A DNA stretch of 24,141 bases from a virus (IMGVR_UViG_3300037189_000872:1-24141), one strand, 5' to 3'. Positions 3,696 through 18,934 are shown, counted from the stretch's first letter. Translations and numbers: made by a program. Notes: generated by a model not told the origin, from the sequence alone.

Positions 3696-4579
3696 TATGC
3701 TCTATATGTTCCAGAAGAAGTAAATTTTAATACTTTGTTTGTTCCTACAGTTGTAACTGTCGTAGATCCTGTTGTAACTCCAGTATAATTTGCAGCTGGT
3801 ATACTTAAAATAATAATACCAGATCCGCCAGCACCACCAGTACCCCATCCTACGTTTGTACCTTGAGCACCACCGCCACCGCCACCAGTATTTGCTGTTC
3901 CATTATATCCATTAGATCCACCACTATTATATGCACCATCACCACCACCACCTAAACCACCAGATCCACCAGATCCAGCCTTATACACACCGCCACCACC
4001 ACCGCCAGCATAATATGTAGATGTTCCTGTAATAGATGATGCTAAACCAATACCACCATCACCAGCTTTAGAAGAGTTATTTCCATCTTGACCTACTCCC
4101 CCAGCACCACCACCTCCGCCTCCACCTACTACGTTAGTTCCTCCAGCACCAGATCCACCTATGTTACCTTGACCAGATACAGCAGTTCCAATAGGAGCAC
4201 CTTGTTTACCACCACCTCCAGATCCGCCAGAGCTGTTGTGACCATCATCATTATTATAAGCACCTTGTCCTGCACCACCACCTACACAATTAATAGAAGT
4301 AATGCCTATACCAGTTATGGATGAATTTGATCCTTGAGTTGGAGTGTAAGTATATCTATCACCGCCAATACCACCACCACCAATAGTAATAGTGTAAGTA
4401 TTTCCAGCTTTTAATAATACTGTGTTAGTTAATAAACCTCCAGCACCGCCTCCTCCAGAATACAAACTACCACCACCGCCTCCTCCAGCTACACTTAAAT
4501 ATGTAATAATGTAATCTGAAATAGAAGTAAATCCATAACTTCTTGCAGATGCTACTGCTTTTGTTGATATTAATGGCAT
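3695..4579 (-). CDS. Stand-alone glycine-rich adhesin-type tail protein
   Basis: 294 residues, of which most after residue 30 are glycine-rich. It opens with a short strand ending in IITYLSVAGGGGGG, then YTITIGGGGIGG, then many GGGG/GGSGG blocks, and ends with GSGIIILSIPAANYTG followed by a beta strand and KFTSSGTYRA. This is the phage glycine-rich domain layout, in which glycine stretches can pack as polyglycine type II helices, as known for the gp38 adhesin of T2/S16-type phages. The C-terminal half of the fibre at 9411-11030 has the same elements in the same order, so the two are paralogues. It lies next to the nozzle and fibre genes. A receptor-binding tip or fibre-capping role is inferred. 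Confidence 0.65.
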   Translation of the reverse strand: MPLISTKAVASARSYGFTSISDYIITYLSVAGGGGGGSLYSGGGGAGGLLTNTVLLKAGNTYTITIGGGGIGGDRYTYTPTQGSNSSITGIGITSINCVGGGAGQGAYNNDDGHNSSGGSGGGGKQGAPIGTAVSGQGNIGGSGAGGTNVVGGGGGGGAGGVGQDGNNSSKAGDGGIGLASSITGTSTYYAGGGGGGVYKAGSGGSGGLGGGGDGAYNSGGSNGYNGTANTGGGGGGAQGTNVGWGTGGAGGSGIIILSIPAANYTGVTTGSTTVTTVGTNKVLKFTSSGTYRA

Positions 4580-4588
4580 TGTTATACC

Positions 4589-5374
4589 TTAAGCAAAATT
4601 AACTTTAGAGGCTAATACTGTAAATGTTGCTGAACCAGTTTTAATAATAGTATATGAATAAATATCTATAGCAGAAGCTGAACCAGATGTCCAAGCATTG
4701 CCACCTTGATATTTAGGAGTAACTGCATTTCCATCAATCGTAATTGCATTATTATAATAAGCAGTAGATCCTTGAGTTGCTAAAAATACTACAGTTACTG
4801 ATTCACCAGTAGCCATTGCTGTATTTAAAGATGTTGCACTAGATGCTCTAAAATTTAAAGTCCAATTACCTGAAGCTGAACTTGTGTAATATAATACTGA
4901 TTGTGTAGTAATATCAAAATTAATTGTTCCTGTTGCAGCAGATCCTGATACTGTTACAGCTTCTAATGCGTTAATTAATTTAGATGATATATTAGCAGTA
5001 TCACCAATAAATGTTTGTTTTGCAGTAAATGTAGTAGGTGTTGCTGGAGCTACATAATCTGTTCCTGCTGTACCAGCTGTAAAATTTCCAGAGGTATCAG
5101 ATTTTACAAGACCTGCAAATGTAGTTAATGCTGGAACACCTAAATTTGTTCTTGCAGATGAAGCATTAGCAGCACCTGTGCCACCTGCTGTAAGTGGAAT
5201 CAGATCACCACTAGCACCAGATTGTAAATCTCTTACTTGTGCCATTAATGTACGAATAGCATTGTTAATACCAGAAGGTGCACATCCTTCATCAATATTA
5301 ATACCAGCTATATCTGTATTTAAATTAGCACCATCTGTAGTTGATGCGTATTGCGAAATCTTTGTTTTTGACAT
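4589..5374 (-). CDS. Tail fibre / tip protein
   Basis: 261 residues. The N-terminal 45 residues (MSKTKISQY, then NIDEGCAPSGINNAIRTLMAQV) form a motif I recognise from many phage fibre proteins, probably the virion-attachment part. It is followed by LIPLTAGGTGAANASSARTNLGV, a GGTG/ARTNLGV motif very common in phage tail fibres. Residues about 110-261 are a beta-rich domain with alternating Thr/Ser and ending in SYTIIKTGSATFTVLASKVNFA, again typical of short fibre tips. It is encoded between the periodic-repeat fibre gene and the glycine-rich adhesin. No enzymatic signature is visible. Confidence 0.7.
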   Translation of the reverse strand: MSKTKISQYASTTDGANLNTDIAGINIDEGCAPSGINNAIRTLMAQVRDLQSGASGDLIPLTAGGTGAANASSARTNLGVPALTTFAGLVKSDTSGNFTAGTAGTDYVAPATPTTFTAKQTFIGDTANISSKLINALEAVTVSGSAATGTINFDITTQSVLYYTSSASGNWTLNFRASSATSLNTAMATGESVTVVFLATQGSTAYYNNAITIDGNAVTPKYQGGNAWTSGSASAIDIYSYTIIKTGSATFTVLASKVNFA

Positions 5375-5377: not shown

Positions 5378-6457
5378 TTATCCTTGTTGTAACCATGTGT
5401 TTGAACCGACTGATACATCATTCCAAGTGTTAGATCCTGTTGGTATATCACTCCAAGACTCTGACCCTTGTGCCATAAGAGTCCAAATATTAGATCCTTC
5501 TGATACAGGTGACCATGACTCTGTACCTATAGGCATTAATACCCATTCTTCACCCAATATATAACCACGAGCAGTTAATGTTGCATATGCTTTACAATTA
5601 GCATATCCAAAAAATTTACCATTACCACGAACTGTAATTAAAGTTTGTGCAGATATATTTGCATAAGCATTTCTTCTGCGTATTGGTGATGCTGTAATTG
5701 TTGCATAAGCTAATATATTTGCTTGTGCACTTACTTTTTTAGCTGCTGATATTATTACAGCTGCTTGTGCTACTATGCTTGCTTTTGCAGAAGCTGTTTT
5801 TCTAGCATTTGCAGATATAATACTAAGTGCACTAATATTTGCAGAATCGTAAGCTGTAGAAAAGCCATTAGCAGATATTGTTGCAGATGCTAATATATTT
5901 GCAGATGAATTTCTACGTCTTATATATGATATTGTTATAGCAGTAGATGCACTAATGCTTGCTGAATCATATGCTGTAGAAAAACCATTTGCTGTAACAG
6001 TAGCAGGTGCTGTTATAGATGCACTATCATAAGCTGTTGAATATCCGTTTCCTGTAACATTAGCAGAAGCTAATATTGTGGCGGAATCATAAGCCTTAGA
6101 AAATCCATTTGCAGTTACTGTTGCAGATGCAAATATTAATGTACTATCATAAGCATAAGAAAAACCATTTGCTGTAACAGTAGCAGGTGCAAATATGCTT
6201 GCAGAATCGTATGCAGTAGAAAATCCATTTGCAGCTACTGTTGTTGGTGCAGATATAGTTATAAGACTTGTTCTATATCTTACAGCAGCCGATGTTACAG
6301 TAGCTTGTGCAGATACGCTGGCGGAATCTAATGCACTAGAATATCCGTTAGCTGTTACAGTAGTTTGTGCAACAATGGATGCTTGACCATACCATGTTGT
6401 ACCTGTTATTGCAAGGGAACTAAAGGGTATTTCTGATAAACTTGAATACCCTAACAT
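5378..6457 (-). CDS. Fibre-like protein built of exact 20-residue and then 10-residue tandem repeats
   Basis: 359 residues. From residue 21 to 300 the sequence runs in fourteen consecutive 20-residue units without any insertion or deletion. The typical unit is A-x-I-x-A-x-(A/T)-x-V-T-A-N-G-F-S-x-A-Y-D-S, best kept between residues 71 and 170. Some units replace the NGFSTAYDS half by basic segments such as SYIRRRNS or SPIRRRNA. From residue 311 a second repeat begins: five 10-residue units of the form G-(S/T)-x-x-W-x-x-(V/I/M)-x-x. A short leader (1-20) precedes it. The strict periodicity suggests a beta-solenoid or a trimeric shaft. It lies in the fibre block, next to the 125-residue conserved protein and a tip protein. 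No homologous domain name is known to me; a fibre shaft or adhesin is inferred. Confidence 0.6.
   Translation of the reverse strand: MLGYSSLSEIPFSSLAITGTTWYGQASIVAQTTVTANGYSSALDSASVSAQATVTSAAVRYRTSLITISAPTTVAANGFSTAYDSASIFAPATVTANGFSYAYDSTLIFASATVTANGFSKAYDSATILASANVTGNGYSTAYDSASITAPATVTANGFSTAYDSASISASTAITISYIRRRNSSANILASATISANGFSTAYDSANISALSIISANARKTASAKASIVAQAAVIISAAKKVSAQANILAYATITASPIRRRNAYANISAQTLITVRGNGKFFGYANCKAYATLTARGYILGEEWVLMPIGTESWSPVSEGSNIWTLMAQGSESWSDIPTGSNTWNDVSVGSNTWLQQG
5393..5527 (-). repeat. Tryptophan-containing 30-bp coding repeats (10-residue units)
   Basis: Residues 311-355 of the same protein: GTESW, GSNIW, GSESW, GSNTW and GSNTW start exactly ten residues apart, each followed by five residues with a central hydrophobic. 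Five full units are visible at the C-terminus. The period is exactly half that of the preceding array. Confidence 0.8.
5558..6397 (-). repeat. Fourteen 60-bp coding repeats (20-residue units)
   Basis: In-frame tandem array inside the fibre-like gene, covering residues 21-300. Units keep a 60-base step exactly. The central units (about 5947-6247) are also close at DNA level, with a recurring GCAAATGGTTTTTC-type segment on the minus strand, while flanking units have diverged. This suggests growth by duplication followed by drift. The plus strand shows the same segment as GAAAAACCATTTGC. Confidence 0.8.
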
Positions 6458-6460: not shown

Positions 6461-6838
6461 TTAGGTTAGCTCTTTAGCTACCCAAGATTGTGTTGCTTCA
6501 TCCCAAGAATATGGCTTATGTAATAAATCTGCTGGGAATGGTACTGGAGCATCCCATAACCATGTAGACTTATTTAATATCCATGAAGGATATGGAGCTG
6601 GACAATAAAATACATCATTTTCTCTATCATAAATGTAACCAATGCCAGCATAATTACCTCTTAATGCAATTCCACCATCTGGCTTACCATCTTGACCATA
6701 ATGTAAATTTCCACGAGTATTGTATGATGTTTGAATCCAATCTCCTGCACTTGTATCAACAAATGTGTCAAAAAAATCTGGTTCAGCAACAATAACTCTG
6801 TCTACTATTCCATTAATTACTTTTGCAAAATGTGCCAT
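6461..6838 (-). CDS. Conserved phage hypothetical protein of the fibre region
   Basis: 125 residues. It begins MAHFAKVINGIVDRVIVAEPDFF, continues with GDWIQTSYNT and GGIALRGNYAGIGYIYD, and ends with PYPSWILNKSTWLWDAPVPFP and a Trp-rich tail. From memory this family is widespread in cyanophages and other aquatic phages, usually among tail-fibre genes, with no established function. The first half looks beta-rich, and the repeated W-x-W/W-x-A-P-x-P elements resemble a small carbohydrate- or assembly-related module, though that is only a resemblance. The start lies 26 bases inside the end of the kinase gene, so it belongs to the same transcript as the modification cassette. Confidence 0.65.
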   Translation of the reverse strand: MAHFAKVINGIVDRVIVAEPDFFDTFVDTSAGDWIQTSYNTRGNLHYGQDGKPDGGIALRGNYAGIGYIYDRENDVFYCPAPYPSWILNKSTWLWDAPVPFPADLLHKPYSWDEATQSWVAKELT

Positions 6839-7241
6839 TTAAAAACTCCATAATAATGTTTACTTCTTGTTTAATTGTTAATCCACTAATAATACAAATA
6901 TCTGCATTTGTTGGTTTTTCAAATATTTTATTTGTATCTTCATATTTACTATCTTTAATAGTATTCATCCATACCATTAAAGCACTGCCGAAAGCATTTC
7001 TTGTGTCTTTTGTAGGGCATACAAAATCACATATAACATATTTAGATTGTGTTAATGTATTATCTGCAAGCATACTCATACGTTTTGCTTGTCTTATACG
7101 ACCTTCATGACTAAAATCCCAATCATCATATAAAGATCTAATTTCATCTGCATTTATGTGAGGTGCATTAAGTTTTTTACTCAATGCTTTTGCTAATGTT
7201 GTTTTGCCAGAATTAGGCAATCCCATTATAAGAATTTTCAT
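6813..7241 (-). CDS. P-loop kinase resembling adenylylsulfate (APS) kinase
   Basis: 142 residues from the ATG at 7241; that ATG overlaps the stop of the oxygenase gene as TAATG, so I prefer it to an upstream TTG at 7247. Walker A is GLPNSGKT (7-14). Further matches to APS kinases are NADEIR with D32 in the place of the family's DGDN(V/I)R, FSHEGRIRQAKRM (43-55) for the FSxxDRxENIRR region, VICDFVCPTKDTR (69-81) for the AFISPxRxxR strand, and FEKPTNADICI (107-117) for the YExPxxP segment. APS kinase phosphorylates adenosine 5'-phosphosulfate to PAPS, the donor for sulfotransferases; a sulfotransferase is encoded three genes upstream. At 142 residues it is shorter than cellular CysC (about 200), so another small-molecule or nucleotide kinase remains possible. 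Confidence 0.6.
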   Translation of the reverse strand: MKILIMGLPNSGKTTLAKALSKKLNAPHINADEIRSLYDDWDFSHEGRIRQAKRMSMLADNTLTQSKYVICDFVCPTKDTRNAFGSALMVWMNTIKDSKYEDTNKIFEKPTNADICIISGLTIKQEVNIIMEFLNGTFCKSN

Positions 7242-7903
7242 TACCAAACAGCTTTTAATCTTCCGATAGGTGTAGTTCCTACTGTTAATTCATGAAAAAA
7301 TACAGCCAAAGTTAATCTTGTATCATTATCATTTGTACCAAAAAAATCCAATGCACCATGAGGAACAGAAGCATCAAAAACTATTAATCTATTATAAGAG
7401 TTGTGCACTTTAATAACTTCATCATATTGATTATTGTTATTTAATCTTGCTTTCTCTGCATCTTGTATAGGTATATTGCCTAAATATGCTTGTTCTTTAA
7501 TATCATTAAATGATCTATCATGTACCAATACATCTTGTTTTAATTTATATATAGATGTTCCACTATTAGGTAATGGATTTGGATTTAAATAAATAATACA
7601 TGACATAATAGCTGGGCTATCCATGTGAACCCATCCAGATCCAAAAGATTTATTTACTTTTTGGAAAGACATATTTACTTTCCAGCTTACATTATTTTGA
7701 TAAGACAAGTCATAATACAAAGACAATATTTTTCTACATACTGAATCAAAAAATGCAGGATGATTGATATATAATTGTTCTGTACGAACAGAAGGATATG
7801 TTCCTTTTTCGTCAGATGTATAATCCATGCTTAAAGCTAAATTACGAACTTTATCTGGGTCATCAAAAAAATTATCTACTACAGCTACTGGATAAGAAAT
7901 CAT
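7241..7903 (-). CDS. 2-oxoglutarate/Fe(II)-dependent oxygenase-like protein (DUF6445-like)
   Basis: 220 residues. The iron ligands of the double-stranded beta-helix are readable: H93-x-D95 in GWVHMDSP, H182 in DASVPHGALDFFG, and the co-substrate arginine R196 in RLTLAVFFHEL. The start PVAVVDNFFDDPDKVRNLAL is typical of DUF6445-type family members found in phages and bacteria. Such enzymes hydroxylate proteins, nucleotides or small molecules using oxygen and 2-oxoglutarate; the substrate is unknown here. Its stop overlaps the kinase start and its start overlaps the stop of the U32-like gene, both as TAATG, so the proteins are probably made in fixed proportion. Together with the neighbouring sulfotransferase it may prepare a hydroxyl group for sulfation, which is an inference. 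Confidence 0.75.
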   Translation of the reverse strand: MISYPVAVVDNFFDDPDKVRNLALSMDYTSDEKGTYPSVRTEQLYINHPAFFDSVCRKILSLYYDLSYQNNVSWKVNMSFQKVNKSFGSGWVHMDSPAIMSCIIYLNPNPLPNSGTSIYKLKQDVLVHDRSFNDIKEQAYLGNIPIQDAEKARLNNNNQYDEVIKVHNSYNRLIVFDASVPHGALDFFGTNDNDTRLTLAVFFHELTVGTTPIGRLKAVW

Positions 7904-8655
7904 TAATAACCTGTAGGTATTGGAGTTTGTTTAACTCTTAACATTTTAAATTTAGTATAGCCACGTTCTAAATAATCTTCTATATCAAAATCTGTCATAC
8001 CAGAAGGTATATATTGTTTTTTATTTAATTGAGAGCACTCAAATTTAGCATCTTTGACACCTATGTTCATTCTCGACATAGAAGCATAACAAGTTCTTGC
8101 TGGACAAGTATATGCACACCCTACATTTAAGAACAATCTAATACGATCTTTAATATTTTGAGTAAAAGATTCTAATAATTCGTAATTAGTATTAAATGCA
8201 ATTGGTAAAGGAACAGCTGTATCATATAACTCTAATGCTTTATGCAATTCTTCTGCTGTTTCTATTTGCTTTGTAACAGAACACTCTACAGAATACAATG
8301 GAAAATCATTTTTAATACGTTCTGCAAGTGCATCTTTCATTACAATTACAGAGTTGCCTTTTTTATGATGCTTTGTAAGAAAGTTTAATTCAGACTGATA
8401 TATTTCATCTGTTGCCAAAAAGTTTGATAATGGTATTCTGTATCCAATATTATTATCGTACATCCATTTTAAATCTAAATAAGACAATTCATATCCAGTA
8501 TAAGTTCTTCCTCCATATAATTTACATGGATCAGAAAAAGCAAATATAGAATCTATTTTATCTATATCTATTCCAAAAAAGTTTTGTTCTAAAAACTCTT
8601 TTATTTTTTGATTAGGGTTTTTACTTCTAGCAGATATAGTAAGACTATATGTCAT
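7903..8655 (-). CDS. U32/UbiU-like protein, probable iron-sulfur TIM-barrel enzyme
   Basis: 250 residues, no confident family hit from memory, but several U32-type signs. The first part alternates strands and helices like a TIM barrel (YRIPLSNFLAT; NSVIVMKDALAERIKNDFPLYSVECS). The C-terminal part has four clustered cysteines, C180, C184, C189 and C207, in FLNVGCAYTCPARTCYASMS and KFECSQL. The end, MTDFDIEDYLERGYTKFKMLRV, matches the U32 ending in which a barrel helix is followed by a GxxxxKIxGR strand. U32 members UbiU/UbiV carry a 4Fe-4S cluster and act in oxygen-independent hydroxylation; RlhA and TrhP hydroxylate RNA. The cysteine spacing here differs from UbiU, and a radical-SAM-like origin cannot be excluded. 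It sits between the sulfotransferase and the oxygenase. Confidence 0.45.
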   Translation of the reverse strand: MTYSLTISARSKNPNQKIKEFLEQNFFGIDIDKIDSIFAFSDPCKLYGGRTYTGYELSYLDLKWMYDNNIGYRIPLSNFLATDEIYQSELNFLTKHHKKGNSVIVMKDALAERIKNDFPLYSVECSVTKQIETAEELHKALELYDTAVPLPIAFNTNYELLESFTQNIKDRIRLFLNVGCAYTCPARTCYASMSRMNIGVKDAKFECSQLNKKQYIPSGMTDFDIEDYLERGYTKFKMLRVKQTPIPTGY

Positions 8656-9394
8656 TTTCTAATATATTACATTTATCTATAATATGTTTAGGTACATCTA
8701 TATTTATATCTCGATAGCTGATATTATTTCTAATATCATGCTGACCAATTAAATTATATACAGCATCATCTTCTGGATGAATATTAACTATGTTAGATAA
8801 GTTATGTTTAAATGTTTCTATTTCACAAAAGTCATATATATTATTAATACAATCTTCTGTTGATTCAACCAAATCTTTATAAGTAACAAATAAAAACTCA
8901 CCACTATTATTTTGTTTAGCCCATTTAATACCATTAAATGATCTTATAATAGGCTCTGACCAATCTTCTAATAATCCATAATATGGATCACCTAAATAGT
9001 TATTTTGTAGTCTTAAATAAGCATAAGATTTAACTACTTCAATTAATGGTCTTTCTAATACTATAACTTTTGGACTGCTAGTAAAATATCTATGTAATAT
9101 TTCTACATTACTTGGCAATGTCCAAGACCTGCATTTATCTATAATATAATTTGCTTTAACATCTTTATAATATAAGGAAGGTATAGCAGATACAATATCA
9201 TTTTGAGTGCTGTATCTTTTATTAGCTAATAATTGTTCTTCACAAGCATTTTGGCATGACTCTTGCATATCCCACATCATTTGACATACAGCAGAATTTC
9301 CTTCCGAATGTATGTCTTTATTTTGTGACAATATTGATGATAATAAAGTTGATCCTGCTCTTGGTAAACCACTTAATGCAATAAATTTATTCAT
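8645..9394 (-). CDS. Sulfotransferase family protein
   Basis: 249 residues. The N-terminal SGLPRAGSTLL (8-18) is the 5'-phosphosulfate-binding loop of PAPS-dependent sulfotransferases, with R12 and S15/T16 in the usual places. VIVLERPLIEVVKSYAYLR (110-128) matches the 3'-phosphate-binding strand and helix (RdPxxxxxS). LFVTYKDLVES (168-178) is the family's YExL(V/I) segment, and the C-terminal GQHDIRNNISYRD resembles the region holding the acceptor side. The protein is complete in length for the PF13469-type group. It overlaps the next gene by 11 bases and follows a tail fibre gene by 16, so it is in the late structural transcript. The acceptor may be a host glycan, a phage fibre or a small molecule; nothing in the sequence decides this. 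Confidence 0.8.
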   Translation of the reverse strand: MNKFIALSGLPRAGSTLLSSILSQNKDIHSEGNSAVCQMMWDMQESCQNACEEQLLANKRYSTQNDIVSAIPSLYYKDVKANYIIDKCRSWTLPSNVEILHRYFTSSPKVIVLERPLIEVVKSYAYLRLQNNYLGDPYYGLLEDWSEPIIRSFNGIKWAKQNNSGEFLFVTYKDLVESTEDCINNIYDFCEIETFKHNLSNIVNIHPEDDAVYNLIGQHDIRNNISYRDINIDVPKHIIDKCNILENDI

Positions 9395-9410: not shown

Positions 9411-11030
9411 TTATGCCTTATAAGTACCAGATAAAGTCCATCTAATCCAAGTATTTGATCCGTTAGTTCCTGTAGTATAAGTTCCAGTTATGTTTCCTGT
9501 TCCACTATAATTAGCTGTAGGTACAGATAGAATACATACTCCAGATCCACCAGAACCACATCCTAATGAACCTGCTTGCACACCTCCACCAGTACCAGAT
9601 CCTGTATTTGCAGCAGCAGATCCTGCTTGACCTGTTCCAGCTTGCGTGCCACCACCAGTACCTCCTACACCACGAGTGCCAGATTGATAAACACCTCCGC
9701 CTCCACCTCCAGCATAAGTTACGGATGTTCCAGTAAGAGTTGTTGCAATACCATTTCCACCATTGCCTCCAGCACCAGAGTTACCTGCCACACCAGCTTG
9801 AGAAGCACCTCCTCCGCCACCTGCACCATATGCACCTCCAGCAGATCCTGCACCACCTGTAAATCCTTGTCCAGAAGTTGGAGATCCAGCAGCAAATGCA
9901 CCACCACCACCACCACCACTTGATCCTCCATTATTTACAGCAGCAGGAGTAGTATTTCCTCCACCACCACCACCTATAGCTGTAATTGTTGTTAGACCAG
10001 AGCCAGAAATAGTTGAATTATTACCTGCATTTGTACCACTATTTGCTGCAAGTCCAGCACCACCACCACCAATAGTAATGGTATAAGTAGTTCCTACAGT
10101 AGCTGTAAATGTGCTTGCAATATATCCTCCAGCACCTCCGCCACCAGCATATCCTCCGCTGTTACCAGTTCCACCACCTGCTAATAAGAAATAAGTTGCA
10201 GTATATTGTGTAGCAGCAGGAGCAGTAGTTAATCCACCTGTGATTAACCATCCTTGAGTTGTATCTATATAAGTTAGTTGTACAGTATATCTATTATTAG
10301 TAATATAAAAATTTGTTGTTGCAGTATTAATTTTTAATCCATTAGGATTAATAACAATACTATTTGTACCAGCAGTACCTGCATAATCAGTTATCACAAT
10401 TACATCACCAGCAGAAGGAGAGGCAGGAAGTGTTACAGTTACAGATGCTGATGTAGTATTAACTGGATAACCATTGTTTGATGAAGCAGAAAAACTAGAT
10501 GTTTGTACAGCTTGCCATGCTAAACCAGCTGCACTCCATGATGTATTTGTACCATCTGTCTTTAAAAACTTATTAGCATTAGATGTTTGTGTTGGTAATA
10601 AAGCATTTAAACCTGCATTTGCTGTAGTTTGACCAGTACCTCCGTAACTAATACCTATAGCTGTTCCGTTCCATGTTCCAGATGCAATAGTTCCTAAACC
10701 ATTTACGTTACCAGTAGCATCTAACCATACACCTTTAGAAGATGGATATGTTACAAATACATTTTTTGTACCTGTAGCTAATGTTAATTTAGCACCAGTA
10801 GATGATGCCAATATTGTATCACGAGATAAAGTAGTACCAGATAGAGTATATGTGCCAATACCTAATTCCCAAGCTGCATTTCCAGTATCCTCAATAACGT
10901 AATAAGTTGTATTACCGTTACCTATATCTGAAAATGGTCTAAAATTAGTTGCAGCACCTAAAAGTGTAATAGTACCAGTACCTGTGGTTGTAGTGGTTTC
11001 TTTTACTCTATCTTTGAGTACTAAAGCCAT
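9411..11030 (-). CDS. Tail fibre with C-terminal glycine-rich adhesin domain
   Basis: 539 residues in three parts. Residues 1-100 (MALVLKDRVKETTTT ... YVIEDTGNAAWELGIGTYT, LSRDTILASS) form an N-terminal module common in phage fibres that probably attaches to the tail. Residues 100-275 hold fibre linker motifs (GTWNGTAIGISYGGTGQTT, NKFLKTDGTNTSW) and a beta-rich domain. From about residue 275 (TATYFLLAGGG) to the end is a glycine-rich domain with YTITIGGGGAG, many GGGGGG blocks, then CILSVPTANYSG and IRWTLSGTYKA. This domain is paralogous to the whole protein at 3695-4579. It is the first gene after the Gp80-like tail protein and directly precedes the modification cassette. Receptor binding is the probable role. 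Confidence 0.75.
   Translation of the reverse strand: MALVLKDRVKETTTTTGTGTITLLGAATNFRPFSDIGNGNTTYYVIEDTGNAAWELGIGTYTLSGTTLSRDTILASSTGAKLTLATGTKNVFVTYPSSKGVWLDATGNVNGLGTIASGTWNGTAIGISYGGTGQTTANAGLNALLPTQTSNANKFLKTDGTNTSWSAAGLAWQAVQTSSFSASSNNGYPVNTTSASVTVTLPASPSAGDVIVITDYAGTAGTNSIVINPNGLKINTATTNFYITNNRYTVQLTYIDTTQGWLITGGLTTAPAATQYTATYFLLAGGGTGNSGGYAGGGGAGGYIASTFTATVGTTYTITIGGGGAGLAANSGTNAGNNSTISGSGLTTITAIGGGGGGNTTPAAVNNGGSSGGGGGGAFAAGSPTSGQGFTGGAGSAGGAYGAGGGGGASQAGVAGNSGAGGNGGNGIATTLTGTSVTYAGGGGGGVYQSGTRGVGGTGGGTQAGTGQAGSAAANTGSGTGGGVQAGSLGCGSGGSGVCILSVPTANYSGTGNITGTYTTGTNGSNTWIRWTLSGTYKA
9414..10208 (-). repeat. Glycine-rich domain, paralogous copy of 3695-4579
   Basis: Codes residues 275-539 of the large fibre. 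Same order of landmarks as the stand-alone protein: hydrophobic strand into GGG, YTITIGGGG, a central glycine block, a VxxAGGGGGGVY element (TYAGGGGGGVYQSG here, TYYAGGGGGGVYKAG there), then a PxANYxG strand and a (T/S)SGTY(K/R)A end. Confidence 0.75.
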
Positions 11031-11042
11031 TATTTATCCTAA

Positions 11043-11432
11043 TTATGCTAATGAAATAGTTAAGTTAGCAGATGAAATTTGGAATATATCGCCAGTATCA
11101 ATAGTTTTTGATGTTGTTAATGGTGCAAAATATAATAAATTACCGCCAGTAAGAGCATCATATATACCCATATAAGTGACAGTACCCCATGAAGCTGTTG
11201 CTGTAGGAAATACTACGTTAGCACTATTTGATGTAGCACCAGATGAAGGTGCTCCAATAGTAACTGCTGTTCTTGCATAAGAACCACCAGATACTTCTGT
11301 GCCTGTACCAGCTGCTGTAAGTGTTGTAGTAAATAAACCTACATAAACTGTTGTAGGTGCTGTATAAGCTGTTGCTCTTAATGATACGTTAATAACTGCA
11401 TTTTGTAAATATGTAGACATTTGTGATGCCAT
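11043..11432 (-). CDS. Gp80-like tail fibre/tail protein
   Basis: 129 residues. The sequence NAVINVSLRATAYTAPTTVYVGLFTTT, then EVSGGSYARTAVTIGAPSSG, NVVFPTATASWGTVTYMGIYDA and GNLLYFAPLTTSKTIDTGDIFQI is the compact beta domain I recognise from the phage Gp80-type tail fibre family found beside head-completion genes in many Gram-negative phages. It is encoded directly after the adaptor and before the main fibre. The exact role is not settled; annotations call it tail fibre or minor structural protein. Confidence 0.7.
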   Translation of the reverse strand: MASQMSTYLQNAVINVSLRATAYTAPTTVYVGLFTTTLTAAGTGTEVSGGSYARTAVTIGAPSSGATSNSANVVFPTATASWGTVTYMGIYDALTGGNLLYFAPLTTSKTIDTGDIFQISSANLTISLA

Positions 11433-11444
11433 TTGTGTTACTCC

Positions 11445-12065
11445 TTATCGTTTTGCTATTTGGATTGTCATTGGAACGCTGGCATATTCACCATCGTCAT
11501 CTGATGCTGTAAGTGAATCTAAACCTTTTTGATACAAACCTGCCCAAGTTTGAATACGGTCATCATTCATAAGGTATGGTTCAGCTTCTGCTAGTGATCC
11601 GTATAATAATAGATCAGGTGCATTAGCTAAAAATACATTAGAAGGATTGGTTGAACTCAAATATGGAGGTGCAGCATAGTAAAGAATCTGTAAAGTATAA
11701 TTACTATCTGGAATAGGTGAGAATTGAAACTCACTTGCTAATACTGTATAACCTCTTGGTAAAGCCTGTGTATAAGCATAAGTATCTCTGTTAATATTAC
11801 TAGGACTATAATAGTTTAAAGCCTGAATAGGTGTAGTATTTATATGTAAATCACGAATAGCTATAAAATCTGTTGGCAATGCAACAGTTGGATCACCTTG
11901 TGCCATTGTAGTTGTAGATGACTTTAGCATTGTGCGTAATCTTAGATCACGTCTTAGTCTATTCTCACATAACTGAATGAATGTAGGAATTTGTGCTGAC
12001 AAGTCTGTTCTAGCTAAGTAATCAGCTATCGTAGATTGTAAGTTTGTGTAATTGGTTATCGCCAT
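11445..12065 (-). CDS. Head-tail adaptor protein (gp4/SU10 adaptor-like)
   Basis: 206 residues, helical at the N-terminus (YTNLQSTIADYLARTDLSAQIPTFIQLCENRLRRDLRLR), a hallmark of the podoviral adaptor fold in which the helices bind the portal ring. It is followed by ALPTDFIAIRDLHINT, a small beta section (YTVLASEFQFSPIPDSNYTLQILYYA) and a further helical part (DLLLYGSLAEAEPYLMNDDRIQTWAGLYQKGLD). In the virion it would form the ring between portal and nozzle. The start overlaps the stop of the previous gene as TAATG (12063-12067). Confidence 0.75.
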   Translation of the reverse strand: MAITNYTNLQSTIADYLARTDLSAQIPTFIQLCENRLRRDLRLRTMLKSSTTTMAQGDPTVALPTDFIAIRDLHINTTPIQALNYYSPSNINRDTYAYTQALPRGYTVLASEFQFSPIPDSNYTLQILYYAAPPYLSSTNPSNVFLANAPDLLLYGSLAEAEPYLMNDDRIQTWAGLYQKGLDSLTASDDDGEYASVPMTIQIAKR

Positions 12066-12388
12066 TATACTTTGCCTTCTCTTGTACGGAAGAATTTGTT
12101 ATCTGGGTTATTTAAAAACTCTTTGAATCTCTTTTGGTCAATTACATGAAATCCACGCAATATACCTTTTTTGTGTAAATCATCCATCACCGCTAATGGA
12201 ATAGATGCGACCTTATTATCAAATAATCCGCCACCCCATTTAGTCTTACGATCAGTTTGGTTTCTTTTTCTTGCATTATCTTCTAGGATTGCTGTTACAT
12301 CTTGTGATGTATTTAGGATAAGACCATCATCGCTTTCATAAGCAGTTATAGTCTTAACATCGTCTTTTTTAAAGATTAATCCAGCCAT
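12065..12388 (-). CDS. Conserved head-region hypothetical protein
   Basis: 107 residues, charged, not recognised as a named domain. It begins MAGLIFKKDDVKTITAYESDDGLILN, has a basic middle (NARKRNQTDRKTKWGG) and ends in KKGILRGFHVIDQKRFKEFLNNPDNKFFRTREGKV. Its place between the major capsid gene and the adaptor is where podoviruses often encode a small head-completion or decoration protein. The intergenic hairpin at 12421-12443 precedes it. No function can be read from the sequence. Confidence 0.6.
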   Translation of the reverse strand: MAGLIFKKDDVKTITAYESDDGLILNTSQDVTAILEDNARKRNQTDRKTKWGGGLFDNKVASIPLAVMDDLHKKGILRGFHVIDQKRFKEFLNNPDNKFFRTREGKV

Positions 12389-12420
12389 TTTATACCTGTA
12401 AGTTATTGAATTAGTGGAGA

Positions 12421-12443
12421 AGCCCTACCACAACGATAGGGCT
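12421..12443 (-). terminator. Hairpin downstream of the major capsid gene (partial terminator or RNA stabiliser)
   Basis: A perfect 7-bp inverted repeat, AGCCCTA (12421-12427) and TAGGGCT (12437-12443), with a 9-base loop, lies 16 bases after the major capsid stop. On the minus strand it is followed by TCTCCACTAAT, which is a weak T-tract. It may attenuate transcription or protect the 3' end of the abundant capsid message. Confidence 0.5.
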
Positions 12444-12458
12444 AATCCGATAGTAATA

Positions 12459-13412
12459 CTAGCTTAAGTCGCCAATAATACCTTGTGCAGCTTCGTTCTT
12501 AACTTCTAATGTGTATTCACATAAAAGTTGAGTGTTTTGTGAGTCACCTACGATAGCCAATTCATTTGTTTGGAATGGGCGTAAGTAAGCTACTGAAACA
12601 TACTCTGGGTCAAGAACAAAAATGTTTTCGCCACCGTCAGCATCTGTGTCGTTTGCTAAGAAACGATCAGGAACTACAGACAATGTACCGAAGTCTGACA
12701 TATATACGTCAGCAGCACCGATGATTGTTGTAGGAGCATCAGCAGGAGCAGCAAAACGCTGTGCAGCAATACCAGCAAAAGCTGATACGTTTTGTTTTTG
12801 TTTTGGAGTAACTAAGAATACTGTTGGGCTACCACCAGCAACGAAAACTTGTCTTACTACTGATTGAAGCATAGCTTCTGTAAGAGCACGATTTGTACCG
12901 TCTACTTTAGCAGTTGTACCGTTAGAACCAGCTACACCAGATGTACCTAAGTTGTAGTTAGTTGATGTCCATGCTTGTAAGCCACCTAATAAACGTGCAG
13001 ATGTTGAGTTACCAGCATTAGCAGTTTGGTTAGATAAGAGGATAGCTTCCATATCACGTTTGATCTCAGCTGCTGCTTTAGCTAATTGGTAAGCCTTTTC
13101 AGATTTACGACCAGCTTTAAGTACTGACTCTAAAGTGCCAGAAACTTTAACAGTTTTTTGTGAGATTTGAGTTCTGTTACCAACACGAGTTGTTGGGCTT
13201 AATGTTGCTGAAGAAGCATCAGCACCGTCAACCGCAGCATTGCTTAGGTTTACAGCAGCTAATGTATCTTTTTGCCATTCATGGTAAACAGCAGTTGCTT
13301 TTGTTTTACCAACAGTAGACATAAATGGTGTATCTGTTGGAGAAATGTTGTAGATAACATCAGAAAGATCTTCTCTGATACCTACAGCTGATTGGGTTTG
13401 AAATGTTGCCAT
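12459..13412 (-). CDS. Major capsid protein, SU10-type (DUF5309-like)
   Basis: 317 residues. The beginning (MATFQTQSAVGIREDLSDVI and then YNISPTDTPFMSTVGKTKA) is the signature of the SU10 major capsid/DUF5309 family. It continues with WQKDTLAAV, NRTQISQKTVKVSGTLESV, KRDMEAILLSNQ and later VFLVTPKQKQNVSAFAG, SDFGTLSVVPDRFLANDTDA and ENIFVLDPEYVSVAYLRPFQ, the expected HK97-like order of an N-arm, P-domain, A-domain and spine elements. No long propeptide is fused, which agrees with the separate scaffold encoded upstream. An AAGGAAAA-type ribosome binding site precedes the ATG. Codon use is visibly richer in GCA/GCT and less AT-biased than in the fibre genes, as expected for high expression. Confidence 0.9.
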   Translation of the reverse strand: MATFQTQSAVGIREDLSDVIYNISPTDTPFMSTVGKTKATAVYHEWQKDTLAAVNLSNAAVDGADASSATLSPTTRVGNRTQISQKTVKVSGTLESVLKAGRKSEKAYQLAKAAAEIKRDMEAILLSNQTANAGNSTSARLLGGLQAWTSTNYNLGTSGVAGSNGTTAKVDGTNRALTEAMLQSVVRQVFVAGGSPTVFLVTPKQKQNVSAFAGIAAQRFAAPADAPTTIIGAADVYMSDFGTLSVVPDRFLANDTDADGGENIFVLDPEYVSVAYLRPFQTNELAIVGDSQNTQLLCEYTLEVKNEAAQGIIGDLS

Positions 13413-13427
13413 TTGTTAATTTTCCTT

Positions 13428-14420
13428 TTATAAGAATTGTTCTAGTACACTTGCGGCATCTGACACTTTGCCAGTTTGACGCAACCTTTGTGATTGTTGT
13501 CTGACGACATCTGATTCAGTAACTTTAGAACCACCTGTGCCTGATTGCAGCATCTTTGGAGCTTGATTTACTTTCTTAGTTACAGCAGGTTTTGCCTTTT
13601 GTAACTTGTCATACATCATAGCCTTATGTAAAGTAAGGACATGACGAGAATCATATACGTTAGAGAGTTCATCGTCTGTAAACCCTAACTCTTTGCCATA
13701 AGTACGAATCTCTTTGCGGAGTTGTTCGCCTTTGACCTTGTCAGAAAACTCTGGTAAGGCTTGTGCTAATTTGGCTGCTTCTTGAGCAATTCTATTTTGG
13801 ATGGCTGCGGCTTGCTCAGATTGTTGCTCTTGGGCAATTCTGGCTTGCTCAGCACGAACAGCGGCTAACTGTTCCTTTTGCTCTGTAATTTCAGCTACTT
13901 TAACTGCATAACCTATTGGGTCGTTTTCTTTTAAATATTGCAATTCCTCAGCTTTAGGCTGTTGGGCAGATAGTAATTGGTCTATCGCTTGCAATCGTTG
14001 AGCATAGTTATCACGAGCATACTTAGCTTCCTCTATAGCTTGACGTTCAGCTTCTACAGCCTTACGTTGTTCAGCTACTTCGGTAGTTTTCTTAGTGTAG
14101 TCTGCACCAAGTTGATAGCCTTTGATTAATTCAGATAAGGGAACTTCCTTTTCTTCGCCTGCCGCTTTCACGACATATCTTGGTTCTTCCTCTTGATCTG
14201 TGTTATCAGATTCATCTTGGGTATCTTCAGATTCACTTTCAGCTTCCGCTTCTTGTGGCTCTGTTTCTACTTCCTCTGCTTGTACAGCTTGTTCTACTTC
14301 ACCTTCTGGTTGCTCTTTAGAGTCCTCTGGTGTGTCAAATAAACCTTCTAAAGCATTGGCTGCTTGTCCTAATGTAAGCTCGCCACTTCCACTTTGTGGA
14401 GTCATGGTTGTTTCACTCAT
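13428..14420 (-). CDS. Scaffolding protein
   Basis: 330 residues, close to the P22 scaffold length (about 303). Residues about 30-80 are very acidic (EEVETEPQEAEAESESED and further Glu/Asp), followed by a short basic/structured section (RYVVKAAGEEKEVPLSELIKGYQ). Residues about 110-230 form a long Gln/Glu/Ala/Lys coiled coil (KAVEAERQAIEEAKYARDN; QEQQSEQAAAIQNRIAQEAA). The C-terminal third carries basic segments (KLQKAKPAVTKKVNQAPK), which in this protein class bind the inner capsid surface. It stands immediately upstream of the major capsid gene. The call rests on composition, length and position rather than a specific domain. Confidence 0.8.
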   Translation of the reverse strand: MSETTMTPQSGSGELTLGQAANALEGLFDTPEDSKEQPEGEVEQAVQAEEVETEPQEAEAESESEDTQDESDNTDQEEEPRYVVKAAGEEKEVPLSELIKGYQLGADYTKKTTEVAEQRKAVEAERQAIEEAKYARDNYAQRLQAIDQLLSAQQPKAEELQYLKENDPIGYAVKVAEITEQKEQLAAVRAEQARIAQEQQSEQAAAIQNRIAQEAAKLAQALPEFSDKVKGEQLRKEIRTYGKELGFTDDELSNVYDSRHVLTLHKAMMYDKLQKAKPAVTKKVNQAPKMLQSGTGGSKVTESDVVRQQSQRLRQTGKVSDAASVLEQFL

Positions 14421-14455
14421 TTATATTTCCTAATTCCTCTATGGGAGGTATTCCA

Positions 14456-14475
14456 ATTATAGAATTGTCTATAAT
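14456..14475. promoter_or_regulatory. Perfect inverted repeat upstream of the scaffold gene
   Basis: ATTATAGA (14456-14463), a 4-base spacer and TCTATAAT (14468-14475) make a perfect dyad between the small 76-residue gene and the scaffold gene, overlapping the TAG stop (14469-14471). On the minus strand it includes a TATAAT hexamer about 36 bases before the scaffold ATG, but no convincing -35. It could be an operator, a weak promoter or an RNA hairpin. Confidence 0.35.
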
Positions 14476-14699
14476 ATCTTAAGTGCTTTGGCTTTAATTT
14501 CGCCTGTTTTGGCGATTGATTCTAGCTCATTCACTAAATCGTTTAATACTCTTAAGTTACGATATGCTATTTCTCTATCGTCAGCTGCGTAGTCCTCAGA
14601 GTTTATAAAATCGTTTGTATATCTTAATCGTAATGTATCAACAACCTCTTTAAAGCTGTCGTTTACTAATATCTTTTCTATGTCTGATCTATCTATCAT
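14469..14699 (-). CDS. Small helical phage protein of unknown function
   Basis: 76 residues, almost wholly helical by pattern: IEKILVNDSFKEVVDTLRLRYTNDF, then DREIAYRNLRVLNDLVNELESIA. Small proteins with this type of FxxVVxxLR ... REIAYRxLxxLxxLxxEL sequence occur near portal and scaffold genes in other podoviruses from memory, without known function. Its ATG overlaps the stop of the preceding gene as ATGA. Confidence 0.6.
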   Translation of the reverse strand: MIDRSDIEKILVNDSFKEVVDTLRLRYTNDFINSEDYAADDREIAYRNLRVLNDLVNELESIAKTGEIKAKALKIL

Positions 14700-15121
14700 T
14701 TAGCTGGTATGCCAGTATTTCCTACATTTCCATTAGATGTTGGGATAGATAAAATAGATTGTGGATAAGGTTGAGCTGGATAATTGCTTGAACCTAATAA
14801 AGCACCGTTACCTAAAAATCTACCTACACCTGAACTACCATTAACGTCAAATTGATTGTTGCCAGATGTTTGCGGAATAGATGCTAACAATGACATAAGT
14901 GGGAATAATTCATTGATAGTAGGAACGTGCTGAGGTTTAGCATTTTGTCCAGTAAGTTTAATAAATGTTTGTGGATCTACTTTACTGTCTACACCTTTAC
15001 CATAGCTTGTAGGAATGGATGGATAATATTGACCACTTACTGAATCATAGTATAACGTATCAGCACTATTAGGTGCTACTGAATTTACTGTTGTTCCTTG
15101 ATCTTGTGCTGGATTACCCAT
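14696..15121 (-). CDS. Hypothetical protein downstream of the portal gene
   Basis: 141 residues, low in charge and rich in Asn, Gly, Pro and Ser (e.g. SVSGQYYPSIPTSYGKG, NGSSGVGRFLGNGALLGSSN, YPAQPYPQSILSIPTSNG). No domain recognised. It overlaps the portal stop by 8 bases and the next gene by 4, so it is translated from the head transcript. It might be a minor head protein; this is only from position. Confidence 0.55.
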   Translation of the reverse strand: MGNPAQDQGTTVNSVAPNSADTLYYDSVSGQYYPSIPTSYGKGVDSKVDPQTFIKLTGQNAKPQHVPTINELFPLMSLLASIPQTSGNNQFDVNGSSGVGRFLGNGALLGSSNYPAQPYPQSILSIPTSNGNVGNTGIPAK

Positions 15122-17174
15122 TTTGATGTCCTTGTAACTTGGATATTTTGTCTATAGAGTCTACAATCATCTTAGCTTGATCTGTTCTAATCTTCTCACC
15201 TTGAGCTGCTGAGTTGACTTGTAGTTTAAATTGTTCCATCTGCATTTCTAATTGTTGCTTAGCTGATTCTATTCTTAACTTCTCAGCCTCTAATTGATTC
15301 TTAGCTTGATCTGTTTGTGCTCTAATTTGAGCTTGTGTTACTTGAGCTTGAGCTAATATCTTAGTAGATTCTATTGTAGGATCTGGTTGAGGCGGTTGGT
15401 TAGCTGCTTGTTGTGCTAACTGTTGAGCTTGTTGATCTGTAATATCATTCATGAAGCTAGATGAATCTCTGAAACCAGCCATGTGAATAAACTTAGCTAA
15501 AGTATCTCTATATTGTTTGATAGTCACTAATGGATTACCTAAACCATATTGTTGAATGATTTGCTCTTGCTTACCTAAGATCATTTGTGTAGTAGCTAAT
15601 TGCTCTTGTTTAGAACCGTTACCTAAACCTACGTTGATTGTAACTTCGTATTGGTCATGCCATTCTCTAGGATTAAATGGTGCAAATTGACCATTAATCT
15701 TGAGATAACGAGGTTTATCTTGATACTTGCATAGTAAGTGTAGAATACCTTTGAAAAGCGATTTAACACCTGTTTCTGCAAAGATACGAGCTATTAATTC
15801 TAGCTTACCTTGTGCTGCATTAGCCATAGTTGCCACAGCAGTTGCAGTAGCATTTTGTAATACGTTAGGATCTAGTCCTTGATTCATGTCATTAACGCCA
15901 GTACGTTTAGATTGTACTTGGTCTAAGTAGTCCATCATTGGAAATGATTGAGCAGCTGTAGACTGAACTGTTAATGGAACGATAGCACTTGGATCTTTAA
16001 CACGAACAACACCGCCAGCAGTAGAAGTAAGTAAGTCATCTAAGTTTACTTTGCCTTCAACAGCAGCAACACGATAGTTGTTAGTGAGATATAAGTTATC
16101 TAGCATTTGGCGAAGGATAGTAGATTTAGTAAGTTGTAAGTCTACAACCTTATCTGCTAAGCCTTGACCATAGAATTTGTGTGGAATTGGTGATGGGCAG
16201 ATAGAATAGAATGGAATATAGTCACATTCCTCATCTGATAGAATCTCATTAGATGCGTATAAGATACGTCTTAATTCTGCAATACCATCATCGTTTTGGT
16301 CTACCTTGATATAGCATTCATAAACCTCAATAAGTTGCATTGTATGGTCTTGTGATTGCATATCTAATGGTTGCTCACCACGAGTATAACGTGCAATTCT
16401 TTCTGGGCTGAATTGTAATGCGTCACCAGTTGCTAATGTATCTACAACCTTAGCATCAAAACCCATAGCAATAAGCTCTGATCTTGTTACCATTCTACGT
16501 TGTGCAATGAATGGAGAATCTTCTATGCGTCTAGCACGTTTAGAGATTAAGAACTCCTCTGGAGGAATGTTCTCAACCACAATCTTACCTGAATTAGTTA
16601 CCTTACGAAGTTTAACATCGTGAGATATAGATTTAGTTTCTTGACCTGTAGCTTCATCCATGACAATAACTTCTTTAGTGTCTTGGCTTACAATCTCTAC
16701 TTCTTGGTCTTGTAATAAGTATGTGAGTTCGTCATCTGTTAGGTTCTGATACTTCTCATAGTTGACATCTTTCTTATCTTGCCAGTAAGCCTTAACAATG
16801 CCTACCTTTTCCATAAGTGCATCTTTAAACCAATTATGAAGGATTAGAAAGCCATCGTTGTCTTTATAGAACACATAGTTACTAAGTGTTGTTGCTTGGT
16901 CGGCAAATGGTTCGTCACCTTCCCTAACTGGCTCAAACTCTACTACATTTTCTGATGCTGAGAATACACGAACGATTTGTGGTAAAGCACCGTCAATAAC
17001 TTCTGCCACTTCTTTAGTTACAATAGATGATCTGCCTTCTACTTCGTTACCATAAGGTTGACCCAAATAGTATTCCAATGACTTTTGACGGTCATAGGTT
17101 GTTTCAGTCATCACATAACCAATAGCGTTATGGATCTCTGCTTGAAGTATTGACTTTAGTTTAACTTGTTCCAT
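15114..17174 (-). CDS. Portal protein, P22-like
   Basis: 686 residues, in the range of P22 gp1 (725). The N-terminal region (DRQKSLEYYLGQPYGNEVEGRSSIVTKEVAEVIDGALPQI) is the characteristic opening of P22-type portals in many podoviruses. The crown/wing part includes GIVKAYWQDK, VENIPPEEFLISKRARRIEDSPFIAQRRMV and IRVMLI-like strands such as HTMQLIEVYECYIKVD. The stem region follows (YGQGLADKVVDLQLTKSTILRQMLDNLYLTNN, then SKRTGVNDMNQGLDP). The last 100 residues are a Gln/Ala-rich coiled coil (AQAQVTQAQIRAQTDQ), the barrel/C-terminal segment. It forms the dodecameric DNA channel and should bind the adaptor at 11445-12065. Confidence 0.9.
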   Translation of the reverse strand: MEQVKLKSILQAEIHNAIGYVMTETTYDRQKSLEYYLGQPYGNEVEGRSSIVTKEVAEVIDGALPQIVRVFSASENVVEFEPVREGDEPFADQATTLSNYVFYKDNDGFLILHNWFKDALMEKVGIVKAYWQDKKDVNYEKYQNLTDDELTYLLQDQEVEIVSQDTKEVIVMDEATGQETKSISHDVKLRKVTNSGKIVVENIPPEEFLISKRARRIEDSPFIAQRRMVTRSELIAMGFDAKVVDTLATGDALQFSPERIARYTRGEQPLDMQSQDHTMQLIEVYECYIKVDQNDDGIAELRRILYASNEILSDEECDYIPFYSICPSPIPHKFYGQGLADKVVDLQLTKSTILRQMLDNLYLTNNYRVAAVEGKVNLDDLLTSTAGGVVRVKDPSAIVPLTVQSTAAQSFPMMDYLDQVQSKRTGVNDMNQGLDPNVLQNATATAVATMANAAQGKLELIARIFAETGVKSLFKGILHLLCKYQDKPRYLKINGQFAPFNPREWHDQYEVTINVGLGNGSKQEQLATTQMILGKQEQIIQQYGLGNPLVTIKQYRDTLAKFIHMAGFRDSSSFMNDITDQQAQQLAQQAANQPPQPDPTIESTKILAQAQVTQAQIRAQTDQAKNQLEAEKLRIESAKQQLEMQMEQFKLQVNSAAQGEKIRTDQAKMIVDSIDKISKLQGHQNG

Positions 17175-18458
17175 TTATACAATCCATGATTTATCATAAT
17201 TAAGAGGTGCACCCCAAGTGGAGTCGTTCTCGTTTAAGCCTACAGCCAGATAACGAAAGGAGTCACTAGAATGTGAGCACCAGTCGTGTAAAGGTGTGTC
17301 ATAAAAGACATTACGTTTCTCATCAAACACTCGTCTATAGTTACGAAGTGCATCTAATCCAGTCTTAACCTTATGGTCAAACCAGCATCTAGGAAGTAAT
17401 TGTCTGACAGCTTGTATACCATCTGGTACATTTAGCTTTGGTACTACTGTTATTTCTAATCCTGCTAGTTCTAGCATCTCTTTACGAGATTTACCAGTTC
17501 CTAGTTCTCTTACTACTACATCATGTGGTAACAGATGAGTAGCATTATCAAAACCATTATCACGCAACCAAGTAACATAAGTGTCAAGTCCTTGTCCATG
17601 ATTTTCATAGTAATCTATAAGTCTTACTTCTTTACCTACTAACTGAGCTACCCAGATTGCTGTTGAATCTGACATACCTAAGTCCCATGCACAATAAGTC
17701 TGTGATAGTTCCTCTCTAGGAATAGTAGTAATTCTGTTTTGTTCTTCTAAATCGTTTATGATCTTACCGTAGTAAGAACCTTCTACTGCTGCATTAAAGC
17801 TAGTTTCAAACTCTTGGTTATACTTATCATCACCCATCTCAGCTCTTGCAGCTGCTAATTCTTGTGGGTTAATAAGTTTAGTTTCGGATGCTTTAAACTC
17901 TAATAGATTCCATCCGTTGTTGTCATTATTAGAACGATTGTTCTCTTTTTCAGCACGATCTCGTAAGTCTTTAAAGTGGTTATTGCCTTTAGGTGTACCA
18001 ATAAACATAGCCCAACCTAATCGGTCAGCTAATGCAGGTCTAACTACTTCTGAGAATATGGCAGGATTTACGTCACCAATCTCGTCTATAACAACACCGT
18101 CTAAATAGATACCACGAAGTGAGTCTGGGTTATCTGCACCGTATAAAGATATACGTCTACCCATAAAGTCAACACGAAGCTCAGCGATGTTTGCTACAGC
18201 ACCTAATGGTCTTGTATACTTGAGTAAGTAATCCCATGCTATACGTTTACATTGTGCGTATGTAGGTGCTATATAAGCAAATCTAGGGCTATCTTTGTCA
18301 CAGATAAGGGCTGAATGTATTAGCTGATTAATAGCTGATACGGTCTTACCCATACGTCTGTGTGCTACAACAACAGTAAACCTATTATCTTTTACAGCTT
18401 GATGAATAAGTTTTTGTGGCTCACGAGGTCTATAACCTGTGTCTAAAGTATCACTCAA
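17175..18458 (-). CDS. terL: Terminase large subunit
   Basis: 427 residues with both expected domains. ATPase: Walker A-like VAHRRMGKT (31-39), Walker B VVIDEIG (122-128) with the catalytic glutamate, and coupling motif FIGTPKG (152-158). Nuclease: D259 in CAWDLGMSD, D313 in LLPHDVVVRE and D399 in SSDSFRYLA, the RNase H-like acid set. It cuts and packages the genome into the prohead through the portal. The start is unusual: no ATG fits, since the first internal Met (36) lies inside Walker A; the TTG at 18456-18458, 8 bases inside the small-subunit gene, is the best start (a CTG two codons earlier is the only alternative, preceded by a stop). Translation is therefore probably coupled to the small subunit. 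Confidence 0.92.
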   Translation of the reverse strand: MSDTLDTGYRPREPQKLIHQAVKDNRFTVVVAHRRMGKTVSAINQLIHSALICDKDSPRFAYIAPTYAQCKRIAWDYLLKYTRPLGAVANIAELRVDFMGRRISLYGADNPDSLRGIYLDGVVIDEIGDVNPAIFSEVVRPALADRLGWAMFIGTPKGNNHFKDLRDRAEKENNRSNNDNNGWNLLEFKASETKLINPQELAAARAEMGDDKYNQEFETSFNAAVEGSYYGKIINDLEEQNRITTIPREELSQTYCAWDLGMSDSTAIWVAQLVGKEVRLIDYYENHGQGLDTYVTWLRDNGFDNATHLLPHDVVVRELGTGKSRKEMLELAGLEITVVPKLNVPDGIQAVRQLLPRCWFDHKVKTGLDALRNYRRVFDEKRNVFYDTPLHDWCSHSSDSFRYLAVGLNENDSTWGAPLNYDKSWIV

Positions 18459-18726
18459 TGCCAGTCACAATCTTAATTGTAATAGGCTCGTCTGTATCAC
18501 CAGTTAGCTTGTTCTCTTGTAATGCTTTACCGTCTAAACGATCACCCAATTCTTTTATAGCAGCCATATCACCTTCTGTGGCTTTGTTAAGTAATGCTTC
18601 TGCTATTAGTCTTAAGCGTTGAGCATCATCTTGAACGACTGCTCGTCTAATTGTTTCCGCCCATAACCTATTGGTTTTACTAGAGTTTTTATTTCCTAAT
18701 GGTGCACCGACTTTGTTTTCTGACAT
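18451..18726 (-). CDS. terS: Terminase small subunit
   Basis: 91 residues. The sequence VGAPLGNKNSSKTNRLWAETIRRAV, then AEALLNKATEGDMAAIKELGDRLDGKAL, is the small-terminase/DUF5681-like pattern seen directly upstream of large-subunit genes in many phages. The middle helices probably form the oligomerisation and DNA-recognition part. It would select the phage DNA and stimulate the large subunit. The gene ends 8 bases inside the large-subunit gene. Confidence 0.8.
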   Translation of the reverse strand: MSENKVGAPLGNKNSSKTNRLWAETIRRAVVQDDAQRLRLIAEALLNKATEGDMAAIKELGDRLDGKALQENKLTGDTDEPITIKIVTGIE

Positions 18727-18933: not shown

Positions 18934-18934
18934 G

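Follow-up and report, generated by a model that had tools for sequence, protein, structure and literature searches.

What are four overlapping enzyme genes doing between the tail-fibre genes of a phage, and do they serve one pathway? The locus lies in a complete IMG/VR virus record of 24141 bases (the window), whose minus strand carries a phage structural module of terminase, portal, scaffold and major head protein, followed by fibre and tail genes. An earlier note on this DNA proposed a partly self-supplied pathway of hydroxylation and sulfation. What survives of that proposal is a sulfation module with its own predicted PAPS-supplying kinase in a tail-fibre cassette; the four genes need not form an obligate set, two of them being optional or replaced. 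We regard it as reasonably probable that the locus is a PAPS-fed sulfation module in an exchangeable tail-fibre cassette, with its acceptor at the phage–host interface.

The four-gene cassette

The earlier note described four consecutive overlapping minus-strand genes at 6813-9394, and these open reading frames are indeed found. They encode a sulfotransferase (ST, 8645..9394, 249 aa), a U32-fold protein (gene 2, 7903..8655, 250 aa), a DUF6445-type Fe(II)/2-oxoglutarate (2OG) oxygenase (OX, 7241..7903, 220 aa) and a reduced APS-kinase homologue (KIN, 6813..7247). Neighbours overlap by 11, 1 and 1 nt. KIN measures 144 aa from a TTG start and 142 aa from the preferred ATG at 7241. Pfam and PHROG identify fibre and virion genes on both sides of the cassette, in agreement with the earlier placement between fibre genes. 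On one side lies a minus-strand gene for a tail-fibre-like protein with a Gly-rich distal domain (9411..11030; Gly_rich_2 2.5e-15, phrog_2295 7.7e-43, phrog_972 tail fibre 1.4e-9). On the other, also on the minus strand, lie a small virion-module protein (6461..6838; phrog_7759, 3.2e-28) and a 60-nt-repeat protein (5378..6457) with six repeat copies spaced at 60/120 nt. These are real genes, well beyond chance: each of the families has homologues, and the neighbourhoods recur in unrelated contigs. The four family identifications hold, as the earlier note had called them.

ST belongs to the Sulfotransfer_3 family (PF13469 2.1e-13; phrog_27463 6e-46). The 5'-PSB loop and the 3'-PSB R...S pair of PAPS-dependent sulfotransferases are both present, and the residues concerned (R12-x-G14-x-T16 and R115/S123) are 100% conserved in 30 distinct relatives. 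Judged by these residues, ST looks catalytically competent. The same can be said of OX (PF20043 1.1e-10), whose iron and 2OG ligands follow the HxD...H...R pattern; H93, D95, H182 and R196 are the residues named previously and are 100% conserved in 91 distinct relatives, so that this enzyme too appears competent. PHROG labels OX as 'minor coat protein' and as 'DNA endonuclease V'; both names were set aside in favour of Pfam and the active-site residues, which indicate a 2OG oxygenase. OX is the weakest-linked member of the cassette.

The kinase and its sulfotransferase partners

KIN (phrog_10255) matches Pfam APS_kinase (PF01583 1.7e-11), as do 34 of the 35 members of its family. The earlier note considered its reading refuted should this protein prove an unrelated kinase. 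That outcome was not realised: a profile of the 35 members finds APS kinases in the PDB, where APS kinases, alone or in fusions, account for 24 of its 26 matches at E <= 1e-5 (best 2.3e-13), the other two being multi-P-loop axonemal proteins matched weakly in separate stretches. The Walker A motif (GxxxxGKT) reads GLPNSGKTT, with G7, G12 and K13 invariant in the family. Invariant positions also lie in stretches that match APS kinases, namely N-A-D-x-x-R, D(W/L)xF, R48, Q51, R54 and F-x-x-P-x4-R. Aligned to solved APS kinases, the APS-site segments D-G-D-x-x-R, D-x-G-F-S...R...N and F-I-S-P-Y-R correspond in KIN to NADExR, DWDFS..R..Q and FxCPxxxxR, with substitutions of G to A, N to Q and S to C/A. 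Two relatives that overlap an ST gene (L041 and L050) carry NKDLGFSVxDR and give the top APS_kinase scores, 59 and 57 bits. The C-terminal lid (KGLYKKAR region) is absent from KIN; PDB alignments end near residue 85-90, and an EDTNKxFxxP segment takes the position of the lid. For this reason the protein is termed APS-kinase-like and not a canonical APS kinase.

It is unlikely that KIN is instead another small-molecule kinase, with, for example, NadR-like nucleoside kinase chemistry. That alternative draws on the missing lid, on an NMNAT-like nucleotidyltransferase domain fused or adjacent to KIN in many relatives of one family branch, and on homologues in Stenotrophomonas phages that sit among nucleotide-metabolism genes. 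The NMNAT-linked branch leaves room for another substrate. However, the best specific matches of KIN are APS kinases, the NMNAT-like domain is absent from the ST-overlapping members, including that of the window, and KIN pairs with two unrelated sulfotransferase families. A reading of the NMNAT-like domain as a miniature ATP sulfurylase was rejected, its sequence matches being NMNATs.

The pairing with ST is recurrent. Overlaps of 1-31 nt join the two genes at 14 loci. In five sister phages (L004, L010, L011, L015 and L016) ST-KIN alone fills the slot that separates a fibre gene from the phrog_7759 gene, and another (L001) has the order fibre-ST-KIN. The window differs from these sisters in having gene 2 and OX between ST and KIN. 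In two further contigs (L002 and L003) a gene between ST and KIN was considered as a 2OG oxygenase and dropped: the HxD...H...R pattern is present, and profile comparison did not confirm it. KIN is present in 12 of 22 records found with ST as query against 1 of 21 found with the oxygenase (Fisher p 6e-4, an optimistic value with near-identical contigs counted, the co-occurrence counts being only partly dereplicated). The 10 ST records with no kinase on the contig include many fragments. Among KIN records that lack Sulfotransfer_3, 11 of 30 carry a Sulfotransfer_2 gene, compared with 0 of 30 oxygenase records (p 3e-4, optimistic for the same reason). This second partner lies directly before KIN with a 1-nt overlap in L029-L033, L037, L039 and L026, and matches phrog_3347, named galactose-3-O-sulfotransferase. 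On the KIN tree the ST-adjacent state requires at least five changes, so repeated gain or loss of the pairing is probable. The core of the cassette is ST plus KIN, and gene 2 and OX are optional or replaced. The recurrence of ST-KIN, together with the pairing with unrelated Sulfotransfer_2 proteins, is best explained if KIN is a PAPS supplier. The two sulfotransferase families are the strongest argument for this role, and from them we infer PAPS supply by KIN.

The U32-fold protein

Gene 2 has no Pfam, PHROG or NCBIfam match, and eight-residue seeds found no relatives in viral or genome contigs, nor in annotated phages. Its relatives were reached through a DNA pattern of the Cys motif, which gave three loci; their alignment then recovered further phages and 26 bacterial loci. 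Four cysteines (C180, C184, C189 and C207) are invariant in 29 sequences. An AlphaFold2 model built on 29 homologues (pLDDT 90.2, pTM 0.88; a single-sequence model, at pLDDT 31, was useless) predicts the U32 TIM-barrel fold. Foldseek against the PDB returns 5d88 (U32 peptidase Mk0906) as the sole significant match (E 1.1e-7, prob 1.00, TM 0.62/0.63), bearing out the U32-like call; the gene 2 profile has no significant match among PDB sequences. 5D88 is the reference structure for U32 oxidases, whose Cys motif is C-x6-C-x15-C-x3-C (PMC11574389). Gene 2 shares the TIM-barrel fold and four conserved cysteines with UbiU/UbiV and the RNA hydroxylases (PMC11574389). It differs from them in its own spacing, C-x3-C-x4-C-x17-C, in lacking a PF01136 match, and in being linked or fused to sulfotransferases.

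These links occur in several settings. In an unrelated phage (L133) the ST, KIN and U32 genes overlap one after another; next comes a gene for a JmjC_2 protein (1e-14), and a DUF6445 gene lies ~2 kb downstream. A single open reading frame joins a U32-like part to a Sulfotransfer_1 domain in Scalindua (L164) and Geobacter (L165). In several bacteria the U32 gene neighbours a sulfotransferase gene: it adjoins a TPR-Sulfotransfer_3 gene in L145 and L150, and an ST gene in L154 and L156. The U32–ST link is frequent and not universal, since most Shewanella and Thalassotalea U32 loci have no ST neighbour, and in L138, L140 and L141 U32, KIN and OX occur together with a halogenase and no clear ST nearby.

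The latter islands, two of which (L138 and L140) also carry a radical SAM gene, bear on whether gene 2 and OX serve a route of their own, for modifying proteins or peptides by oxidation or halogenation, and merely share an island with ST-KIN. The halogenase and further 2OG oxygenases of L133 would fit such a route. We consider it rather doubtful: direct U32–ST fusions tie the U32 protein to sulfation, and KIN is present in the same three islands.

A neighbourhood survey, as the earlier note had suggested, showed that the cassette genes do not occur independently and at random. This result weighs on a further alternative, in which unrelated accessory genes collected independently at an insertion hot spot beside the fibre and have no pathway in common. 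The slot is variable between close relatives, the sister ST-KIN cassettes L001, L004 and L010 lack U32 and OX, and such phages often carry 2OG oxygenases in the absence of ST. Against these points stand overlapping ST-KIN pairs in several backgrounds, the two sulfotransferase partners of KIN, the ST-KIN-U32 neighbourhood in an unrelated phage and the bacterial U32–ST fusions, which make independent accumulation improbable.

Exchange with the fibre tip and candidate acceptors

Two close relatives of the window's phage delimit the variable block. One (L169) has about 89% DNA identity to the window over 10740-14929 and 15113-19215, and the other (L170) a similar identity, about 89%, over 10744-14699. 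Both matches end inside the fibre gene, at 10740 and 10744. In L169 the 60-nt-repeat gene comes straight after a shorter fibre end, and homology to the window resumes at about this point, beyond the cassette, which places the repeat gene at the far limit of the exchanged block. In L170 the breakpoint leads into other fibre-like genes. ST, U32, OX and KIN are absent from both, and none of 80 backbone relatives, several of them fragments, carries ST or KIN. The GC content is 0.27-0.29 at 7-9 kb, compared with mostly 0.33-0.40 elsewhere in the window. With the matches stopping inside the fibre gene, the cassette absent there and GC dipping, the enzymes and the fibre distal domain appear to be exchanged as one block.

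Because cassette and fibre tip move jointly, the fibre is the favoured acceptor. In several backgrounds ST follows a Gly-rich fibre gene; Gly-rich fibres are also found without ST, and no fibre residue marks the fibre as acceptor. The YDS repeats of 5378-6457 were considered as sulfation sites and dropped, as a repeat-rich homologue occurs in the cassette-free L169.

The main rival acceptor is a glycan, since T4-like relatives of ST lie in glycan gene clusters, adjoining a NodU/Nol-like carbamoyltransferase, glycosyltransferases, a methyltransferase and an aminotransferase. The sulfated molecule would then be a surface glycan, whether of the host or made by the phage, and not the fibre protein; its sulfation would serve receptor masking, superinfection exclusion or glycan decoration. 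The phrog_3347 assignment of KIN's Sulfotransfer_2 partners agrees with this, as does the action of NodPQ/NodH and NoeE on glycans. Yet Pfam and PHROG scans reveal no glycan gene among the window proteins scanned, and the cassette is exchanged with the fibre tip. On balance a glycan target is a possibility that we judge somewhat unlikely.

Proposed mechanism and related systems

The activities of the cassette proteins are inferred from conserved residues. With the fibre as preferred acceptor, the proposed steps are as follows. (i) KIN would phosphorylate host-made APS to PAPS. A gene for ATP sulfurylase was not identified; the host must therefore provide the APS, and self-supply would be only partial. 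(ii) ST would move the sulfuryl group from PAPS to an acceptor at the phage–host interface. The linked Gly-rich fibre, through one of its residues or a group attached to it, is the likeliest acceptor, and a glycan on the host surface a less likely one. (iii) The U32 protein and the 2OG oxygenase would be optional oxidative partners, probably acting on the same acceptor and perhaps installing the hydroxyl to be sulfated. In L133, JmjC may stand in for OX. Acceptor identity and reaction order are speculative. A fuller version, in which the U32 and/or 2OG enzyme hydroxylates and ST then sulfates the phage's own receptor-binding fibre with self-supplied PAPS, would make this a two-step post-translational modification exchanged with the fibre tip and give U32 proteins a new role in making or preparing sulfation acceptors; this version is tentative and rather unlikely as a whole.

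The closest logic is found in two bacterial systems. In rhizobia, NodP/NodQ and NodH (and NoeE) serve Nod-factor sulfation, and NodPQ provides both ATP sulfurylase and a complete APS kinase. Like the proposed phage module, this system joins a sulfotransferase to dedicated PAPS-supply genes, with a surface or secreted molecule as target. It differs in being bacterial, in having no U32 or 2OG partner, in lying outside phage fibre cassettes and in its ATP sulfurylase; measured against such a dedicated sulfation operon, the phage loci show overlapping ST-KIN pairs without an identified ATP sulfurylase gene. The second system is RaxST of Xanthomonas, a bacterial sulfotransferase that likewise has PAPS-binding Arg and Ser motifs and receives PAPS from ATP sulfurylase and APS kinase (raxP, raxQ) (PMC6637879). 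Its substrate is the RaxX peptide, for which dedicated secretion genes exist; PAPS is made by core genes located outside the cluster, and there is no oxidase (PMC6637879).

Among marine phages, sulfotransferases are described as auxiliary genes in OM43 phage contigs, their biological function being stated as unclear (PMC10580990). These PF13469 proteins (PMC10580990), and those of Synechococcus phages S-SKS1, S-SRM01 and S-SCSM1, resemble ST, but no paired kinase or U32 gene is described for them, and no APS kinase was found in the three Synechococcus phage records. Full-text searches of open-licence papers found no account of a phage module with sulfotransferase, APS kinase, U32 protein and tail fibre. 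The cassette is real and recurrent, and among PAPS-fed sulfation operons it represents an apparently undescribed variant.

With a kinase gene as their recurrent overlapping partner, phage sulfotransferases become open to a direct test of the PAPS-supply hypothesis, and the joint exchange of cassette and fibre tip directs attention to the phage–host interface. For a U32 branch of bacteria and phages that is uncharacterised, the neighbourhoods and fusions with sulfotransferases offer a concrete lead to function. Should fibres really be sulfated, phage adsorption would gain a further layer, one based on charge and dependent on enzymes.

In several relatives of the window's reduced APS-kinase homologue, the kinase has as its partner an NMNAT-like nucleotidyltransferase, which shows the motifs HxGH and ISATxIR. 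The two domains are fused in contigs L019, L043, L044, L055, L060, L120 and L121, and their genes adjoin in L023, L024, L025, L027, L034 and L035. A role in NadR-like NAD metabolism or in another activation pathway is proposed. The order in L060 is a Sulfotransfer_2-type gene, a PP-loop, QueC-like gene (3961–4704; assigned by eye only) and the kinase–NMNAT fusion gene.

Single bacterial open reading frames join a U32-like part to a Sulfotransfer_1 domain in Scalindua (L164, 5920–7548) and Geobacter (L165, 3675–5282) MAGs. Contigs L008, L012–L014 and L044 carry a T4-like tail-sheath stabiliser gene, and their sulfotransferase adjoins a NodU/Nol-like carbamoyltransferase and, in L044, also glycosyltransferase-type genes.

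The window encodes a repeat protein (5378–6457; 60-nt periodic repeats, FSTAYDSA-type units), of which the cassette-free relative L169 has a repeat-rich homologue.

Tryptophan-halogenase-like genes at 2166–3734 of L133, 6153–7754 of L138 and 7567–9168 of L141 share phage islands with U32, kinase-family and 2OG oxygenase genes, and with radical SAM in L138. These islands possibly serve protein or peptide modification.
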